DNA from: Micromonospora sp. NBC_01796
GTDB taxonomy: Bacteria; Actinomycetota; Actinomycetes; Mycobacteriales; Micromonosporaceae
Direction of reading: 5' to 3'
Assembly: GCF_035917455.1 (NCBI RefSeq)
Contig: NZ_CP109078.1
Span: forward strand, 868,001-932,000
Length of the DNA: 64,000 nucleotides
The position numbers were made by a program, and so were the translations under genes. The notes under the pieces are model-generated. The model was not told the origin of the DNA, did not search any database, and was given only the letters and a program-made list of their open reading frames with translations. Shown piece by piece: positions 32,812 to 39,363 of this stretch (position 1 is the first letter of the stretch; each line of letters starts with the position of its first letter).

Positions 32812-32974
32812 GCCGTACCGCCCCGCAGGCGCGTCAACTTGGCGTGCTGTCGTACAGGTGGGGCAGGATGCAACACGTGTCGTGTCTTGAGCAAGAATCG
32901 CCCGTGGTCCGCGCGTCGGACCCGACCCACGGACCGAAGCCGGTCCGGGCGTCGGCGCCGACCGGAGCCCGGCG

Positions 32975-34744
32975 GTGAGCACCCCGCCGATCGGCGACGA
33001 GTCGACCGACCCCGGCACGGTGGTCGGCCGGGTCCTGGGCACCGCCGACGCCACCCCGTTGCAGTTCTGGACCGCCGTCGGACCGGACAGCTACCTGCAA
33101 CTCGACGACGTGGTGGTGACCCGGCGTGAGCTGCCCGACCGGGAACCGGTGACGATCGCCGGGGTGGTCACCCAGGTCCGGGCCCGGCACGAGGGCGCGC
33201 AGTTCGACTCGGACGTCTTCGCAATCGCCGACGGCACCCTGCCGGCCCAGGTGCAGGAGGCCGCCGAGATCACCACCACCCGGGTCGACCCGGAGTTCTA
33301 CGTCCCGCCGTCACCCGGCGCGCTGGTCTACCGGGCGCAGGGCGAGGCGCGTGACTCGGCGCTGCACTTCGACCGGATGGAGCGGCGGGTGCCGATGGGC
33401 ACCGGCCGGGACGGGGTGCCGGTCTTCCTCAACGCCGACTTCCTCGACGGGAGCCGGGGCGCCCACGTGTCGATCTCCGGCATCTCCGGGGTGGCGACCA
33501 AGACCAGCTTCGCCACCTTCCTGCTCTACTCGGTGTTCCGCTCCGGGGTGCTCGGCGGCGACGCGGTCAACGCCAAGGCGCTGATCTTCAACGTCAAGGG
33601 TGAGGACCTGCTCTTCCTCGACCACCCGAACACCCGCCTGGACGCGGCCACCACCGCGGCGTACGCGAAGCTCGGGCTCACCGCGGGCGCGTTCCCCGAC
33701 GTTCGGGTCTACGCCCCTCCCCGGGCCGGTGACGCCTCCGGCACCCCGGACGTGAGCAGCAGGCTGACCGGGGTGGACAGCTTCTACTGGACGCTGACCG
33801 AGTTCTGCGCCGACCGGATGCTGCCGTACGTCTTCGCCGACGCCGACGACGAACGCCAGCAGTACACGATGGTGGTCCACTCGGTCACCGCCCACCTGCA
33901 CCGGTACGCCCAGCCGGCCGACGGCGGGGTGAGCATCGACGGGGTACGGGTGCACTCCTACCCCGACCTGGTCGACCACATCGTGGAGCAGCTCACCGAC
34001 GAGGAGACCCGGTCCACCTGGGCCGGCAGCGCGATCAACACCGGCACGGTGAACGCGTTCGCCCGACGGCTGATCAACAGCAAGAAGGACCTGGCCCGGC
34101 TGATCCGGGGCGACCTGGCCACCCGCCGCCCGCACCGGATCAACACCGCCGAGAGCGCCCAGGTCACCGTCGTCGACCTGCACAACCTGCCGGACCGGGC
34201 GCAGCGGTTCGTGGTCGGTGTGACGCTGAAGACCGAGTTCGAGAACAAGGAGAAGACCGGCACCGCCAAGCCGCTGCTCTTCGTGGTGCTGGACGAGCTG
34301 AACAAGTACGCCCCCCGCGAGGGCTCCTCCCCGATCAAGGAGGTGCTGCTGGACATCGCCGAGCGCGGTCGCTCCCTCGGGGTGATCCTGATCGGCGCCC
34401 AGCAGACCGCCAGCGAGGTGGAACGGCGGATCGTCACCAACTCGGCGATCCGGGTGGTCGGCCGGCTCGACCCGGCCGAGGCGTCCCGCCCCGAGTACGG
34501 CTTCCTCCCCCCGGCGCAACGCCAACGCGCGCTGCTCGCCAAACCCGGCACCATGTTCGTCAACCAGCCGGACATCCCGGTCCCGCTCTGCCTGGAGTTC
34601 CCCTTCCCGGCCTGGGCGACCCGGGTCTCCGAGGCCGGCCAGGCCCCGTCGGAGACGCTGCGTTCGATCACCCAGGCGGCCGACCCGTTCGCGGTGGTCG
34701 GCTCCGGGGCCGGCGCGCTGACCGACGACGACATCCCGTTCTGA
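32975..34744 (+). CDS. herA: HerA-like hexameric DNA-translocating ATPase
   Basis: A 589-residue ATPase. Residues about 15-125 form the small HAS-barrel typical of HerA (TVVGRVLGTADATPLQFWTAV, TIAGVVTQVRARHEG), followed by the FtsK/HerA RecA core. The P-loop is the variant GISGVATKTS (169-178), with Thr where canonical Walker A has Gly before Lys. Walker B is LLFVVLDE (434-441), and GAQQTAS (474-480) fits the sensor Gln. HerA pumps DNA and drives NurA during 5'-end resection. Start GTG 32975 has a CGGAG site. It is the first gene of a four-gene run with SbcD, SbcC and a NurA-like protein; next gene 10 bases on. Confidence 0.85.
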   Translation: MSTPPIGDESTDPGTVVGRVLGTADATPLQFWTAVGPDSYLQLDDVVVTRRELPDREPVTIAGVVTQVRARHEGAQFDSDVFAIADGTLPAQVQEAAEITTTRVDPEFYVPPSPGALVYRAQGEARDSALHFDRMERRVPMGTGRDGVPVFLNADFLDGSRGAHVSISGISGVATKTSFATFLLYSVFRSGVLGGDAVNAKALIFNVKGEDLLFLDHPNTRLDAATTAAYAKLGLTAGAFPDVRVYAPPRAGDASGTPDVSSRLTGVDSFYWTLTEFCADRMLPYVFADADDERQQYTMVVHSVTAHLHRYAQPADGGVSIDGVRVHSYPDLVDHIVEQLTDEETRSTWAGSAINTGTVNAFARRLINSKKDLARLIRGDLATRRPHRINTAESAQVTVVDLHNLPDRAQRFVVGVTLKTEFENKEKTGTAKPLLFVVLDELNKYAPREGSSPIKEVLLDIAERGRSLGVILIGAQQTASEVERRIVTNSAIRVVGRLDPAEASRPEYGFLPPAQRQRALLAKPGTMFVNQPDIPVPLCLEFPFPAWATRVSEAGQAPSETLRSITQAADPFAVVGSGAGALTDDDIPF

Positions 34745-34754
34745 GGACCCCGCC

Positions 34755-35900
34755 GTGAAGATCCTGCACACCTCCGACTGGCACATCGGCAAGGTCCTCA
34801 AGGGACAGTCACGGGTCGCCGAGCAGGTGAAGGTGCTGACCCAGGTGGTGGAGGTCGCCCGCGCCGAGCAACCCGACCTGGTGATCGTCGCCGGTGACCT
34901 CTACGACACCGCCGCGCCCACCCCGGAGGCGACCCGGCTGGTCACGCGCGCGCTGACCGCGCTGCGCAACACCGGGGCGCAGGTGGTCGCGGTCGGCGGC
35001 AACCACGACAACGGGCCGGCACTGGACGCCCTGCGCCCGTGGGCCGACGCGGCCGGGGTGGCGCTGCGCGGCAGTGTCCGGGACACCCCGGAGGAACACC
35101 TGGTCGACGGGGTCACCGCCGGTGGCGAGCGGTGGCGGTTGGTCGCCCTGCCGTTCCTGTCCCAGCGGTACGCGGTCCGGGCGACGGAAATGTACGAGCT
35201 GACCGCCGCCGAGGCGAACCAGACGTACGCCGACCACGTCGGGCGGCTCATCCGGCGGCTCACCGAGAGCTTCAGCGAACCGGACCGGGTGCACCTGGTC
35301 ACCGCCCACCTGACCGTGGTCGGCGCGATGGCCGGCGGCGGCGAGCGGGAGTCGCAGACCGTACTCGGGTATGCGGTGCCGGCGACGGTCTTCCCGACCA
35401 ACGCGCACTACGTGGCGCTCGGCCACCTGCACCGGTCCCAGCAGGTGCCCGGACCGGCCCCGATCCGCTACAGCGGGAGCCCGCTCGCGATCGACTTCGG
35501 CGAGGAGGAGAACCGGCCCTCGGTCACCATCGTCGAGGTCGGCACCAGCACCGCCGCCCGTACCCGTGAGGTGCCGATCACCGCCGCCTCGCCGCTGCGT
35601 ACGGTCCGGGGCACCCTCGCCGAACTGGCCGAGATCGAGGCGCCGGACGGGTGGCTGCGGGTGTACGTACGCGAGACACCCCGGGCCGGGCTGCGCGAGG
35701 AGGTGCAGGCCCTGCTCCCCCGCGCGCTGGAGGTCCGGGTCGATCCGGAGCTGCTGGCGGCGGCCACCCGTACCCGGGCCGCACCCCGGGCCGGTCGCTC
35801 GGCGCGGGAACTGTTCGGCGACTACCTGGACAGTCGGGGCCCGGAGGACGACGGCGTACGCGACCTGTTCGACGAGCTGTACGAGGAGGTGGGCGGGTAG
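34755..35900 (+). CDS. sbcD: SbcD (Mre11-type) nuclease subunit
   Basis: A 381-residue calcineurin-like phosphoesterase. The metal-binding motifs are intact: SDWH (Asp8, His10), AGDLYD (Asp48), GGNHD (82-85), the VTAHLTVVG segment and GHLHRSQ. With SbcC it forms an ATP-dependent nuclease that opens hairpins and trims blocked DNA ends. GTG 34755 begins 10 bases after the HerA stop. The stop codon overlaps the SbcC GTG by one base. Length fits bacterial SbcD. Confidence 0.92.
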   Translation: MKILHTSDWHIGKVLKGQSRVAEQVKVLTQVVEVARAEQPDLVIVAGDLYDTAAPTPEATRLVTRALTALRNTGAQVVAVGGNHDNGPALDALRPWADAAGVALRGSVRDTPEEHLVDGVTAGGERWRLVALPFLSQRYAVRATEMYELTAAEANQTYADHVGRLIRRLTESFSEPDRVHLVTAHLTVVGAMAGGGERESQTVLGYAVPATVFPTNAHYVALGHLHRSQQVPGPAPIRYSGSPLAIDFGEEENRPSVTIVEVGTSTAARTREVPITAASPLRTVRGTLAELAEIEAPDGWLRVYVRETPRAGLREEVQALLPRALEVRVDPELLAAATRTRAAPRAGRSARELFGDYLDSRGPEDDGVRDLFDELYEEVGG

Positions 35901-38392
35901 TGCGTCCGCTCCGGCTGGACCTGGCGGGCTTCACCGTCTTCCGGGAGCCCACCACGATCGACTTCACCGACGCCGACTTCTTCGCCCTGGTCGGGCCGAC
36001 CGGTTCGGGCAAGTCGACGGTCCTCGACGCGATCTGCTTCGCCCTCTACGGCACCGTCCCGCGCTGGGGCGGCAGCCGGGGCATCGCCAACGCCCTCGCC
36101 CCGTCGGCGGTCGAGGCCCGGGTCCGGCTGGTCTTCGACTCCGCCGGCTCCCGTTACGTGGCGACCCGGGTGGTCCGGCGGGACAGCCGGGGCAACGTCA
36201 AGACCGGCAACGCCGGCCTGCAACGGATGCCCGACGGGTTCGACGTGACCAAGCTCGACACCGGGATGAGCCCGGAGGACCTCGGCGAGGCCCTGGCCGG
36301 CACCCCGGCCCAGATGGACGAGGCGGTGCTGACCGCAGTCGGCCTGCCGTACGAGCAGTTCACCAGCTGTGTGGTGCTGCCGCAGGGGCAGTTCGCGGAC
36401 TTCCTGCACGCCAAGCCCGCCACCCGGCAGCAGATCCTGATCAACCTGCTCGGGCTCGGCGTCTACGAGCGGGTGCAGCAGGCCGCCACCGGGCGCGCGG
36501 TCGGAGCCGAGGCGCAGCTCGCCGCGGTCAACCAGGTACTGCAGGGGCTCACCGACGCCGACGAGGAGACCCTGACCGCCGCCACCGAGCACGTCGGCGC
36601 GATGCATCGGCTGGCCGACGACGTGCGGGCCGCCGTACCCGAACTGGAACGGGCCCGTGCGGCGGCGGACGCGGCGGCGGCCCGGCTGACCGCGCTCGAC
36701 GGCGAACTCGCCGAACTGGACCGGATCCACCCGCCGGCCGACGTCGCCGCCGTGGCGCGGGCGGTGACCGACGCGCGGGCCGTGGCGGCGGAGACCGTCG
36801 CGGCGGTCACCCTGGCCGAGGAACGCGAAGAGAAGGTACGCGGCGAGCTGGCCTCGGCCGGTGACCAGACGATGCTGCGGCTGCTGTTGCAGGCACACAC
36901 CGAACGGGACCGGGTGGCCGCCGAGGCGGAAGCCCTCGGGTCCGGGCTGACCGGCGCCGAGACCGACCACACCGCCGCGCTCGCCGCACTCGACCGGGCC
37001 CGCACCGACGCCGAGCGGGCGTCCGTGGAGCTGGAGGCGGCGCGCCGGGCATACCAGGAGGCGCAGACCGCCGACCGGGCCGCCGCGCTGCGCGGACACC
37101 TCGCCGCCGGGGAGCCGTGCCCGGTCTGCGAGCAGGAGGTGCACGTGGTGCCCGCGGTGCCGGCCGGTTCCGCGGTGACCGCCGCCGAGGCCGCCGGACA
37201 CACCGCCAGGACCACCGCCGACGCCGCGACCAAGGTCCTCACCGAACGCGAACGGGCCGCCCGCGCCCTGGAACGGGACCTCGACCGGGCCCGTGCCCGG
37301 CACGACCAGCTCGCCGCCGCACTGTCCGAACTGGACACCCGGCTGGCCGACTCGCCCGGACCGGCCGCCCTGCGTCGTGAACTCGCCGCCCTGGACAGGC
37401 TGCGCGGCCAACTCGACCAGGCCGGTACGGCGGTCCGCACCGCACGGGAGGCGTCCCGGCGGGCCCGGACCGGAGTCGAGGCGGCCGAGGAACGGGTCCG
37501 GCTCGCCGGCCGGGAGTTCGACACCGCCCGCGACCGGATCGCCCGGCTCGGCCCGCCCGCCGCCGACCGGGACGACCTCGCCGCCGCCTGGGAGGTGCTG
37601 CGCGACTGGGCGCAGCGGGAGGCGGACCGCCGACGGGCCGACCGGGTCGACGCCGCGAGTGCGGTGGCGCAGGCACGGGCCGCCGCCGACACCGTCGCCG
37701 CCGGGATCGCCGCCCTGTTCACCGCCGCCGGGGTGCCCGCCGGCAACGCGACGGGCCGGTCCGGCACCGACCCGGTGGCCGCCGCGGCGGTCGCGGTGGT
37801 GGCCGCCGAGGCCGAACAGCGGCGCCTGGCGCAGCGGCGGGAGCAGGCCGACCAGCTCACCGAGAAACGGGTCGAACACGAACGCGCCGCCCGGACGGCA
37901 CGGTCGTTGGCGGGGCACCTACGGGCCAACAACTTCGAACGGTGGCTGCTCGCCGAGGCGCTGGACCTGCTGGTCGACGGCGCCTCCCGGATCCTGCGCG
38001 AACTGACCGGCGGGCAGTACGAACTCACCCACGACAAGGGCGAGTTCTACGTGGTCGACCAGCACGACGCCGGGCTGCGCCGGGGCGTACGGACGCTGTC
38101 CGGCGGGGAGACGTTCCAGGCCAGCCTGGCCCTGGCACTGGCCCTGTCCGAGCAGCTCGCCGGCCTCTCCACCACCACCGCCAGCCTGGAGTCGATCCTG
38201 CTCGACGAGGGCTTCGGCACCCTCGACGTGGCCACCCTCGACACCGTCGCGGCGACCCTGGAAACCCTGGCCGCCCGGGGTGACCGGATGGTCGGCGTGG
38301 TCACCCACGTACCGGCGCTGGCCGAACGGGTGCCGGTCCGGTACGAGGTCAGCAAGGACGCCCGTACCGCACGGGTGGAGCGGATCGGATGA
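35900..38392 (+). CDS. sbcC: SbcC (Rad50-type) SMC-like ATPase
   Basis: An 830-residue SMC-family ATPase. Walker A GPTGSGKST is at 32-40. Long Ala/Glu/Arg-rich coiled-coil arms (about 190-690) meet at a zinc hook, CPVC (Cys407, Cys410). The ABC signature LSGGE is at 733-737 and Walker B ILLDEG at about 767-771. CVVLPQGQFADFLHAKPATRQQIL is the SbcC/Rad50 Q-loop region. It partners SbcD and holds DNA ends. Start GTG 35900 overlaps the SbcD stop (TAGTG); an open frame continues upstream inside sbcD but is not coding. Its stop overlaps the next gene by ATGA. Confidence 0.92.
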   Translation: MRPLRLDLAGFTVFREPTTIDFTDADFFALVGPTGSGKSTVLDAICFALYGTVPRWGGSRGIANALAPSAVEARVRLVFDSAGSRYVATRVVRRDSRGNVKTGNAGLQRMPDGFDVTKLDTGMSPEDLGEALAGTPAQMDEAVLTAVGLPYEQFTSCVVLPQGQFADFLHAKPATRQQILINLLGLGVYERVQQAATGRAVGAEAQLAAVNQVLQGLTDADEETLTAATEHVGAMHRLADDVRAAVPELERARAAADAAAARLTALDGELAELDRIHPPADVAAVARAVTDARAVAAETVAAVTLAEEREEKVRGELASAGDQTMLRLLLQAHTERDRVAAEAEALGSGLTGAETDHTAALAALDRARTDAERASVELEAARRAYQEAQTADRAAALRGHLAAGEPCPVCEQEVHVVPAVPAGSAVTAAEAAGHTARTTADAATKVLTERERAARALERDLDRARARHDQLAAALSELDTRLADSPGPAALRRELAALDRLRGQLDQAGTAVRTAREASRRARTGVEAAEERVRLAGREFDTARDRIARLGPPAADRDDLAAAWEVLRDWAQREADRRRADRVDAASAVAQARAAADTVAAGIAALFTAAGVPAGNATGRSGTDPVAAAAVAVVAAEAEQRRLAQRREQADQLTEKRVEHERAARTARSLAGHLRANNFERWLLAEALDLLVDGASRILRELTGGQYELTHDKGEFYVVDQHDAGLRRGVRTLSGGETFQASLALALALSEQLAGLSTTTASLESILLDEGFGTLDVATLDTVAATLETLAARGDRMVGVVTHVPALAERVPVRYEVSKDARTARVERIG

Positions 38393-39363
38393 CCGGGACC
38401 CAGGAGCCACCGCCCCGGCTCTACGTCGACGGCTGGGACCCCTCCTACGGTGCCTCGTTCGAGGCGGCCGGCGGACCGGCGGCGCCGAGCAGCGCACAGG
38501 TCGACGCGACCGTGGAGATGCCGGCGGACGAGTGGCGGGCGGTGGGCGTACCGGACGGTTTGCGGCCACCGGACGTGGTGCTCCTGGTCGACGGGGTACG
38601 CCGGATCGACGCCAGCGTCTGGACCCGCGAGCACGACGGTGCCTCGTACCCCGGCATCGCCGCCTCGTACGCCGCCGGCGTGGTCCGGTGCGACCTGCGG
38701 CGCGGGGCGGCCGAGCTGGCCGGGTCGCAGGTCAAACGGGGGCTGTTCACCGCCAGCCCGTCGGCCGGGGACGTGCTCGCCGGTCAGGTCCGCTACACGC
38801 TGCACCGGGTCGGCGGGACCGGTGAGCTGAGCAAGCTGCCGGCCGCCGTACAGGGGCCGCTGACCGCCCTGGAGGTCGAGGTCTCCGACGCGGCCAGGAC
38901 CGACGACGACCTGCTGATCCTGGACGGGCCGCTGCGCAACCGGCGCGACCTGCCACGTGCCATCGGCTACATCAAGACCCAGCACAGCCAGTACCTGGAC
39001 GCCGGGCTGACCGCCGTGGTGACCCGGCTGGCGCCGGGGGAACGGTCCCCGGTGTTCAAGCTCGGCACCGCCTGGGGCGGCTACTCCTGGTACCTGCGGC
39101 TGCCGGGGACGACCGGTGCCCCGTGGGCCGGGATCGTCCGGGTCGAGTGCTCGGCCGAGCTGAGCGCCCCGGAGGCGATCGGGCTCGCCGACCGGTCCCT
39201 GGTGACACTGCCCCGGTTCGCCTCGTCGCCGTACAAGGATCCTCGGGCACCGCAGAACCTGATCCCGATCGCCGGGCTGGAGCGCCGGCTGCGGGCCCTG
39301 CTCGGCGACGCCCGGCTGCTGCACCGCACGCTGACCGTGGCCGCCAACCGGCTTCCGCGCTGA
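38389..39363 (+). CDS. nurA: NurA-like 5'-3' nuclease
   Basis: A 324-residue protein usually left as hypothetical. Its pattern fits the NurA domain: VVLLVDGVRRIDASVW (catalytic Asp68 strand), a YAAGVVRCDLRRGAAEL strand, LLILDGPL (acidic strand), RDLPRAIGYIKTQHSQYL helix, and a terminal block with SPYKDPRAPQNLIPIAGLERRLRALLGDARLL. NurA digests 5' ends inside the HerA ring. The start overlaps the SbcC stop by four bases, completing HerA-SbcD-SbcC-NurA. The fold assignment is inferred from motifs plus operon context; direct proof would need structure or profile search. Confidence 0.7.
   Translation: MTGTQEPPPRLYVDGWDPSYGASFEAAGGPAAPSSAQVDATVEMPADEWRAVGVPDGLRPPDVVLLVDGVRRIDASVWTREHDGASYPGIAASYAAGVVRCDLRRGAAELAGSQVKRGLFTASPSAGDVLAGQVRYTLHRVGGTGELSKLPAAVQGPLTALEVEVSDAARTDDDLLILDGPLRNRRDLPRAIGYIKTQHSQYLDAGLTAVVTRLAPGERSPVFKLGTAWGGYSWYLRLPGTTGAPWAGIVRVECSAELSAPEAIGLADRSLVTLPRFASSPYKDPRAPQNLIPIAGLERRLRALLGDARLLHRTLTVAANRLPR

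Follow-up and report, generated by a model that had tools for sequence, protein, structure and literature searches.

A herA-sbcD-sbcC-nurA operon of Micromonospora encodes a HerA with an SSB-type C-terminal tip

The handover to RecA of DNA ends cut by enzymes other than RecBCD, AddAB or AdnAB is poorly understood, and the in-cell role of bacterial HerA-NurA is disputed. A four-gene locus in Micromonospora sp. NBC_01796 raises both matters at once: what does a HerA-NurA set do in an actinomycete, and how might its product reach RecA? The locus lies in the window, the whole stretch of DNA analyzed here (64,000 nucleotides; contig NZ_CP109078.1, positions 868,001 to 932,000). A first-pass annotation had described it as an archaeal-style HerA-Mre11-Rad50-NurA operon, possibly an end-processing or DNA-defense machine additional to AdnAB. 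The same genome does contain an AdnAB-type pair (tandem UvrD-PDDEXK), and the operon is indeed additional to it.

The four genes occupy positions 32975-39363 on the plus strand, with junctions of +10, -1, and -4 bases. The gene for the predicted Deinococcus-type HerA DNA translocase (herA, 32975..34744, 589 aa) has a GTG start and is followed, after a 10-base gap, by the gene for the predicted Mre11-type nuclease subunit (sbcD, 34755..35900, 381 aa). The GTG start of the predicted Rad50-type ATPase gene (sbcC, 35900..38392, 830 aa) overlaps the sbcD stop by 1 base, and sbcC joins the predicted Deinococcus-type NurA nuclease gene (nurA, 38389..39363, 324 aa) through a 4-base overlap, ATGA. A longer sbcC start at 35651, proposed by the open reading frame lister, lies inside sbcD; the start at 35900 chosen in the first-pass annotation is preferred. 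The operon as first described, junctions included, is borne out by these coordinates and by the gene order kept in relatives, and the four protein names hold.

A nurA match is present in 147 of 150 sampled genomes of the family Micromonosporaceae. Twenty stretches were fetched from these 147 genomes, and 19 of them preserve both the shared strand and the order of all four genes; the arrangement is therefore more than chance, and a loss of the linkage in relatives, which the annotation had named as a refuting outcome, did not come up. On the HerA tree the family rows group as a single clade with support 99. Within the class Actinomycetes the linked operon is patchy, being found in 23 of 394 genomes, a count that takes in the Micromonosporaceae; among 40 stretches of other actinomycetote classes, 33 keep the four genes together (manual count). 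The operon is thus present in an actinomycete but is not peculiar to this one. Three remote relatives, at 28-29% identity, are found in viral contigs.

The single HerA protein of the window matches D. radiodurans HerA (drHerA; PDB 7f6d_B) with an E value of 1.4e-147 (phmmer). Residues 12-317 and 321-555 align to 10-337 and 364-602 of 7f6d_B, covering the HAS-barrel and RecA-like domains. Counted on the alignments, K176/T177, D440/E441, and R448 correspond to K175/T176, D487/E488, and R495 of drHerA, and R466, R505, K208, and D211 to R513, R552, K217, and D220. The Walker A (GxSGxATKT) lysine and threonine, the Walker B aspartate and glutamate, the trans-acting arginine, and the two translocation arginines are all kept; in D. 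radiodurans, residues for ATPase activity, translocation, and cutting have been shown to be necessary (PMC9960219). In a 20-row HerA alignment, K176, T177, K208, D211, D440, E441, R466, and R505 are invariant and R448 is nearly so. The identification as a HAS-barrel HerA-like ATPase thus stands on the 7f6d match, although the suggested DUF87 profile did not recover it: no Pfam model, including DUF87 and SSB, matched up to E 10, and the NCBIfam HerA models scored 9.7-16.7 bits, under their cut-offs of 800-970.

NurA follows the same pattern. The single window protein matches D. radiodurans NurA (drNurA; 7f6d_H) at E 3.8e-20, a profile search gives E 1.2e-54, and the best Foldseek match in the PDB of the AlphaFold2 model (mean pLDDT 86.9) is 7f6d_G, with the same RNase H-like fold (E 7.7e-17, TM 0.67). 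D68, K196, and R286 align with the catalytic D53, K201, and R309 of drNurA (counted on the alignment) and are invariant in 29 of 29 alignment rows. The NurA-like motifs read in the fourth protein are in this way confirmed by profile, single sequence, and predicted fold. Its score against the NurA model PF09376 is 18.2 bits (E 0.0018), short of the Pfam gathering score of 21, and the whole-genome search gave no Pfam match for it; the protein is filed under the Deinococcus type rather than that model.

SbcD carries the phosphoesterase motifs DWHIG, GDLYD, GNHD, and GHLH and exceeds the TIGR00619 cut-off of 77.65 (178 bits, E 2.2e-52), in agreement with the metal motifs earlier called intact; it is also the sole SbcD match of the genome. 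SbcC has a Walker A motif (GPTGSGKST), an LSGGE signature, and an LDEG Walker B, all ATPase motifs being intact. Its CPVC zinc hook, already noted, is read at 37118..37129 on the plus strand, in frame with the start at 35900. Against TIGR00618, SbcC scores 264 bits (E 2.5e-78), below the model cut-off of 478.5.

Archaeal nurA-mre11-rad50-herA operons (PMC4663267, PMC2288612) group the same four activities, and to this extent the label "archaeal-style" fits. The archaeal proteins themselves are only remotely similar (NurA 3taz at a Foldseek E of 5.4e-03; HerA without a Pfam DUF87 match), and an archaeal origin as such was rejected: the closer matches of HerA and NurA are, by a wide margin, the D. 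radiodurans proteins, and both are of the bacterial Deinococcus type. The homology of each to its counterpart in the D. radiodurans NurA-HerA complex (PDB 7f6d, 7wrw, 7wrx; PMC9960219) extends over the greater part of the protein and takes in the ATPase and translocation residues given above and the D, K, R catalytic set. In contrast to D. radiodurans, the window genes form one operon with sbcD and sbcC (order H-D-C-N), HerA bears an SSB-type tip that drHerA apparently lacks, and the acidic NurA-binding residues of HerA are kept only in part (one of three in place, D80). That the four genes can be linked in a bacterium has been reported before: in the non-actinomycete Oceanithermus profundus, nurA, hepA, sbcD, and sbcC are clustered, with sbcD and sbcC downstream of hepA (PMC5448004). 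A search for a published account of an SSB-type tip on HerA found none, and the first-pass annotation had overlooked the tip.

HerA ends in DDDIPF (codons 34724..34741, plus strand), identical to the SSB C-terminal tip (SSB-Ct; PMC5872125), and preceded by a variable linker. All 96 distinct family-type HerAs have the proline and phenylalanine, and 95 of them an aspartate at -5. Between -7 and -30, 23 of 24 positions have no residue shared by half of the 96 rows, the exception being a glycine at -9 (69 of 96). Like SSB-Ct, the tip runs from acidic residues through a hydrophobic one to Pro-Phe at the free C-terminus, with a variable linker in front of it; the difference is that the window tip sits on a ring translocase rather than an OB-fold protein, and that its binding is putative. 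HerA is not an SSB: it has no match to an OB-fold single-stranded DNA-binding domain and is SSB-like in its tip only. In the 8.56-Mb genome the pattern [DE][DE]xPF followed by a real stop, picked after the tail had been seen, occurs in HerA and in SSB (tail DEEPPF) and at no other site.

The same pattern was scanned in 20 further genomes, 13 of the own family and 7 of other families. It matches HerA in 12 of the 13 family genomes (G023, ending QEFPF, is missed) and SSB in all 10 of these with a known SSB position; in the 7 genomes of other families, HerA does not match the spacing. The pattern is not confined to HerA and SSB in every family genome. On the HerA tree a PF end is found in 55 of 56 rows of the class Actinomycetes clade (support 100). 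In other classes with the same operon, 31 of 34 HerA rows lack it, one of them a broken copy; two PF-ending rows (L036 and L044) fall among these classes on the tree. A comparison of HerA tails with SSB tails outside the class Actinomycetes gave no clear pattern.

Homology suggests that the operon would resect DNA ends, and we consider it rather probable that it forms a chromosomal machine for end resection, with the tail of HerA bringing in partners of SSB, for example RecO. SbcC-SbcD (Rad50-Mre11) would open or clean the broken end. By analogy with the D. radiodurans complex, the HerA hexamer would then pump duplex DNA into the NurA dimer, and NurA would cut the 5' strand, leaving a 3' single strand for RecA; complex formation is likewise suggested by this analogy. 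The six tips on the ring, probably on flexible linkers, may bind proteins that dock on the SSB tail, most likely RecO, and bound RecO would deliver the RecA-loading machinery to the end under resection. Judging by the published domain layout, the tips would probably lie across the ring from NurA, on its opposite face, the linker being needed to reach the new 3' strand. HerA can work without the tip, since drHerA apparently has none; in archaea, the C-terminus of HerA braces the adjacent subunit (PMC9960219).

DrHerA is reported to bind the C-terminal domain of RecJ, also without the HAS domain (PMC4663267), and the SSB-Ct pocket sits in that same domain of RecJ (PMC4846377). RecJ was rejected as the tip partner here: the genome has no RecJ match at E 0.001. 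RecO is therefore preferred, and a RecO was found in the genome. More tentatively, and with somewhat less than an even chance in our estimation, HerA of the class Actinomycetes may have adopted the tail of SSB as its own docking code; the six tips per ring would attract RecO and further SSB partners ahead of SSB or in competition with it, and resection and RecA loading would be coupled by a motif common to two unrelated proteins.

The tip could instead act within the complex, gating the DNA channel of HerA or holding SbcCD or NurA. Several DNA-binding proteins have acidic tails that compete with DNA, and a second motif (DPF, NPF, DAF, or DVF) lies in the linker of 93 of the 96 family-type HerAs. 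Most HerAs from the other classes carry a similar one close to the C-terminus, and at least one short motif may thus serve in something other than an SSB-type tip. Such an internal function is nevertheless unlikely: the free terminal Pro-Phe and acidic residues are kept despite the variable linker, as in the SSB tail of the genome itself, 17 of 18 HerAs found elsewhere in the class Actinomycetes, outside this family, end in PF, mostly as PPF, the form observed in SSB tails of Micromonosporaceae, and the same operon partners occur in classes without the tip. The operon might also be an ordinary resection operon whose tail resembles that of SSB by a coincidence of acidic low-complexity C-termini. 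The tip is short, six residues; the reversed control pattern occurs 7 times in the same genome; three of the 34 other-class HerAs end in PF; and in 7 of the 13 other family genomes the pattern plus a real stop turns up at one to three more places, a second SSB being one of these. Coincidence is very improbable all the same, given an invariant Pro-Phe beside a poorly conserved linker and the absence of PF ends among the partner proteins of the same loci (SbcD 0 of 151 rows, SbcC 0 of 142, NurA 0 of 145).

A further possibility is that the operon serves mainly in defense, its resection parts reused to degrade foreign DNA ends of phages or plasmids. TdpAB is presumably an anti-phage system. One of its chains is NurA-like in fold (PDB 8wfd, 8wet), and the NurA model matches chain 8wfd_G, weakly (8.0e-06) and with far lower similarity than 7f6d. 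Relatives are also borne on plasmids: in Streptomyces sp. BB1-1-1 beside an ImmA/IrrE gene and TIGR02680/TIGR02678/DUF2397 genes, which we take to be of Wadjet type, on a conjugative cyanobacterial plasmid, and on a Chloroflexota plasmid with an ImmA/IrrE gene adjoining nurA. At the window locus, no positive sign of a DNA-defense role was found. Ten neighbors were scanned against Pfam; six have matches (RibD_C, an esterase with CBM_2, a methyltransferase-like protein, a sigma factor, a zinc-finger protein, and an oxidase), four have none, and to our knowledge none belongs to a known defense family. The best PADLOC matches of HerA (mad8, 5.8e-09; HerA, 1.5e-05) are partial and weak, NurA matches no PADLOC model, and no full-length match to the HerA and partner of a known anti-phage HerA system was found. 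Typical defense islands are patchy, whereas this operon is near-universal in the family, keeps its order, has its family HerAs in one clade, and holds the only SbcD match of the genome. We regard a mainly defensive role as quite improbable.

The full HerA-NurA-Mre11-Rad50 set is found almost throughout this family of culturable actinomycetes, and taking away the six residues of the tip should allow resection to be told apart from recruitment. Should the tip bind SSB partners, as argued from sequence alone, HerA would be a motor protein sharing the docking code of SSB.

The operon may be induced by DNA damage. Comparison of relatives points to a promoter-like element, TGTCGTAC-N8-CAGGAT, upstream of herA (32848..32869, plus strand). 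No LexA-like site is present on the plus strand in the 300 bases upstream, with up to 2 mismatches allowed, and LexA control was rejected. In its 8+N8+6 layout the element agrees with the RecA-NDp (PafBC) promoter, which we take to be TTGTCRGTG, an 8-base spacer, and TANNNT; the TGTC core and spacing fit, and of 12 fixed bases 7 match and 5 differ. That consensus itself was not found in the window with up to 4 mismatches. Neither TGTCGTAC nor TTGTC-N12-[CT]ANNNT was found in the stretches with the AdnAB-type genes and recO (L226, L228), which speaks against a shared regulon element. The pattern TGTC[AG]NN[CG]N8[CT]ANNAT, chosen post hoc after the relatives had been seen, was looked for in upstream slices 360 bases long: 50 of the 99 slices of family type, which are related rows, contain it, as against 0 of 48 others, and there are 4 matches in 1.42 Mb of same-strand background. 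One upstream slice (L025) carries the variant TGTCAGTG-N8-CAGGAT.

Four plus-strand genes, herA (32975-34744), sbcD (34755-35900), sbcC (35900-38392) and nurA (38389-39363), span 32975-39363, and their successive junctions measure +10, -1 and -4 bases. The re-read sequence bears out the first-pass annotation on this layout, on the intact metal motifs of SbcD (read in the sequence and matched by profile) and on the CPVC zinc hook of SbcC, whose ATPase motifs are likewise intact. Both SbcD and SbcC are identified by profile search, the SbcC score lying under the cut-off of its model; in a genome-wide search for SbcD only, the operon copy is the sole match. The ten neighbouring genes of the window appear unrelated to the operon by Pfam scan. 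The HerA and NurA assignments made on first reading fared unevenly in Pfam: NurA scores weakly (18.2 bits, under the cut-off of 21), and HerA has no match up to E 10. The identity of both is nevertheless settled by searches of solved structures, since these match the Deinococcus radiodurans proteins. As single sequences, HerA matches 7f6d_B (D. radiodurans HerA) at E 1.4e-147 and NurA matches 7f6d_H (D. radiodurans NurA) at E 3.8e-20, with profile searches reaching 8.4e-199 and 1.2e-54, respectively. A predicted NurA structure (built on 31 sequences; mean pLDDT 86.9) has 7f6d NurA as its top fold match at 7.7e-17, followed by Thermotoga TM1739. Residues required for function in D. radiodurans are described in PMC9960219; counted on printed alignments, K176, T177, K208, D211, D440, E441, R448, R466 and R505 of HerA and D68, K196 and R286 of NurA are kept. 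One of the three NurA-binding acidic residues of the D. radiodurans HerA is kept in place (D80).

The linkage of the four genes, noted earlier, is conserved in relatives: herA-sbcD-sbcC-nurA lie on one strand in 19 of 20 fetched stretches of Micromonosporaceae (the exception, L027, has no herA within the stretch), and a nurA match occurs in 147 of 150 family genomes. The three misses fall in two genera, and two of these assemblies are about 80% complete. Four of the 19 ordered stretches include a long gap, two of which were inspected for content: about 1 kb between sbcC and nurA in L014, L015 and L017 (a carbonic anhydrase gene in L014), and 3 kb between herA and sbcD in L020 (an RNase II-like gene). 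Across the phylum sample a nurA match (E 1e-5) is found in 68 of 296 genomes, about four of them remote; in the class sample it is found in 23 of 394, three from the family itself, and in none of the 20 listed same-order genomes outside the family. In other classes, 33 of 40 fetched stretches carry all four genes at at least 25 bits by our own count, in two orders, herA-sbcD-sbcC-nurA and nurA-herA-sbcD-sbcC. Among the best 80 of 581 confirmed matches, 67 loci have the full order on one strand, 10 have herA-sbcD-sbcC, two herA only and one herA-sbcC-sbcD, counted as they stand, so that incomplete orders may reflect contig ends. Plantactinospora HerAs (93% identity) are nearest among the named matches listed, a list that may omit records still closer to the window. 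In L034, from another class, the HerA frame is split into several pieces beside single sbcD, sbcC and nurA matches, which may be a sequencing error. Judged from sequence, this is a genuine and conserved resection operon of the bacterial kind, one that can be understood from systems already known; its HerA has a new feature that lends itself to testing. Linkage of the same four genes in a bacterium, Oceanithermus, is already published (PMC5448004). A literature search taking in few subscription journals turned up neither this actinomycetote operon nor an SSB-type HerA tip in any title or abstract.

That feature is the C-terminal end of HerA, DDDIPF (codons 34724-34741), which resembles the acidic tip of single-stranded-DNA-binding protein (SSB). 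The family-type group comprises 101 loci (the window, L013-L032 and L116-L195, Glycomyces and Stackebrandtia included; L027 without HerA), giving 100 rows, 96 of them distinct over the last 400 residues. The P and F are invariant in all 96; the I is kept in 94 rows, an acidic residue (D or E) in 95 at -4 and in 93 at -6, and D itself in 95 at -5. Of the 24 positions spanning -7 to -30, 23 have no residue present in as many as half of the rows, the exception being G at -9 (69 of 96), and the end after the last conserved block is 33-42 residues long. Of 20 loci from other families of the class, 16 end in PF with two or more acidic residues among the six before it, one has PF with fewer, one ends PPY and two are without usable HerA. 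In 40 loci of other classes, 31 HerAs lack PF (one of them the broken copy in L034, its true end unread), three have it and six loci are without usable HerA. The tip is absent from two plasmid HerAs of other phyla, a third plasmid copy being cut, and no PF end occurs in the operon partners at the same loci (SbcD 0/151, SbcC 0/142, NurA 0/145). When HerA with the tip at its end is the query, the D. radiodurans alignment stops at residue 608 of 618, which argues that this protein, its last residues unseen, lacks the tip. Many other-class HerAs (L033-L067) have a second short motif near the end, often DPF or DPFxGL, and a DPF-type motif also precedes the tip in family HerAs.

A 91-row HerA tree, rooted for drawing only and with some long branches unsure, has a class clade of 56 rows (support 100), 55 of them with PF ends. 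One branch (support 92) parts the 26 rows with nurA-herA order from PF-ending rows, eight unlabelled rows being uncounted. More than one origin of the PF tip is possible, because two further PF-ending rows, L036 and L044, sit outside the class clade among rows without PF.

Both genomic tip patterns were picked post hoc, after the tail was seen. D-[DE]-[DE]-x-P-F-stop has one site in 8.56 Mb, that of herA; the looser [DE][DE]xPF has four, two with a real stop, herA and ssb, whose product ends DEEPPF. Since a reversed control pattern has seven sites, the argument rests on position at two gene ends and on conservation rather than on count. HerA is among the tip-pattern sites in 12 of 13 other family genomes, and seven of the 13 have further real-stop sites. 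In several other-class genomes (L073, L074, L077, L081, L083) the best SSB match is without a Pro-Phe end (e.g., ETPLDA), so that these genomes seem to have lost or altered the usual SSB tip, as judged from the best match only.

DrHerA binds the RecJ C-terminal domain (PMC4663267), and the same domain holds a pocket for the SSB tail (PMC4846377); given these published findings, it is plausible that HerA and SSB share, or compete for, one docking pocket. The HerA tip would recruit RecO, proposed as partner because RecO is present in the genome, binds the SSB tail in E. coli (PMC7913777), and a genome search has no RecJ match. A tandem UvrD-PDDEXK pair in the same genome constitutes an AdnAB-type machine, and the operon is thus additional to AdnAB, as first suggested.

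Upstream of herA lies a promoter-like element, TGTCGTAC-N8-CAGGAT (32848-32869). Among 99 family rows, which are related to one another, 50 have the pattern TGTC[AG]NN[CG]-N8-[CT]ANNAT ahead of herA; it occurs in 0 of 48 others, against a background of 4 in 1.42 Mb. In layout it follows the RecA-NDp promoter, through which the PafBC regulon responds to DNA damage, though the element in the window departs from the RecA-NDp consensus at 5 of 12 fixed bases, and a scan with that consensus has no site at four or fewer mismatches. In PMC5087735, a printed cloning primer has TGTCAGTG-N8-TACGGT in front of a Streptomyces gene that is inducible by UV. The putative element would fit DNA-damage control of the operon.

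The four-gene module is mobile, because plasmids carry all four genes. HerA relatives lie on six plasmid records, one of which, at 11.85 Mb, looks like a chromosome; complete sets occur on a plasmid of Streptomyces, on a conjugative one from a cyanobacterium and on one from Chloroflexota, where the scores are weaker. Some members of the family may thus serve in defence, although that the operon is mainly a defence machine is improbable. On the Streptomyces plasmid (L196, NZ_CP134205.1) the whole operon adjoins TIGR02680, TIGR02678, DUF2397 and ImmA/IrrE genes, and its HerA ends IDEPPY, without the PF tip. The cyanobacterial and Chloroflexota plasmids (L198, L199) have the order nurA-herA-sbcD-sbcC, and in the latter an ImmA/IrrE gene lies directly 5' of nurA. 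Remote HerA relatives (28-29% identity) are also found on three viral contigs (L223-L225), and a weak NurA match lies close to one of them.
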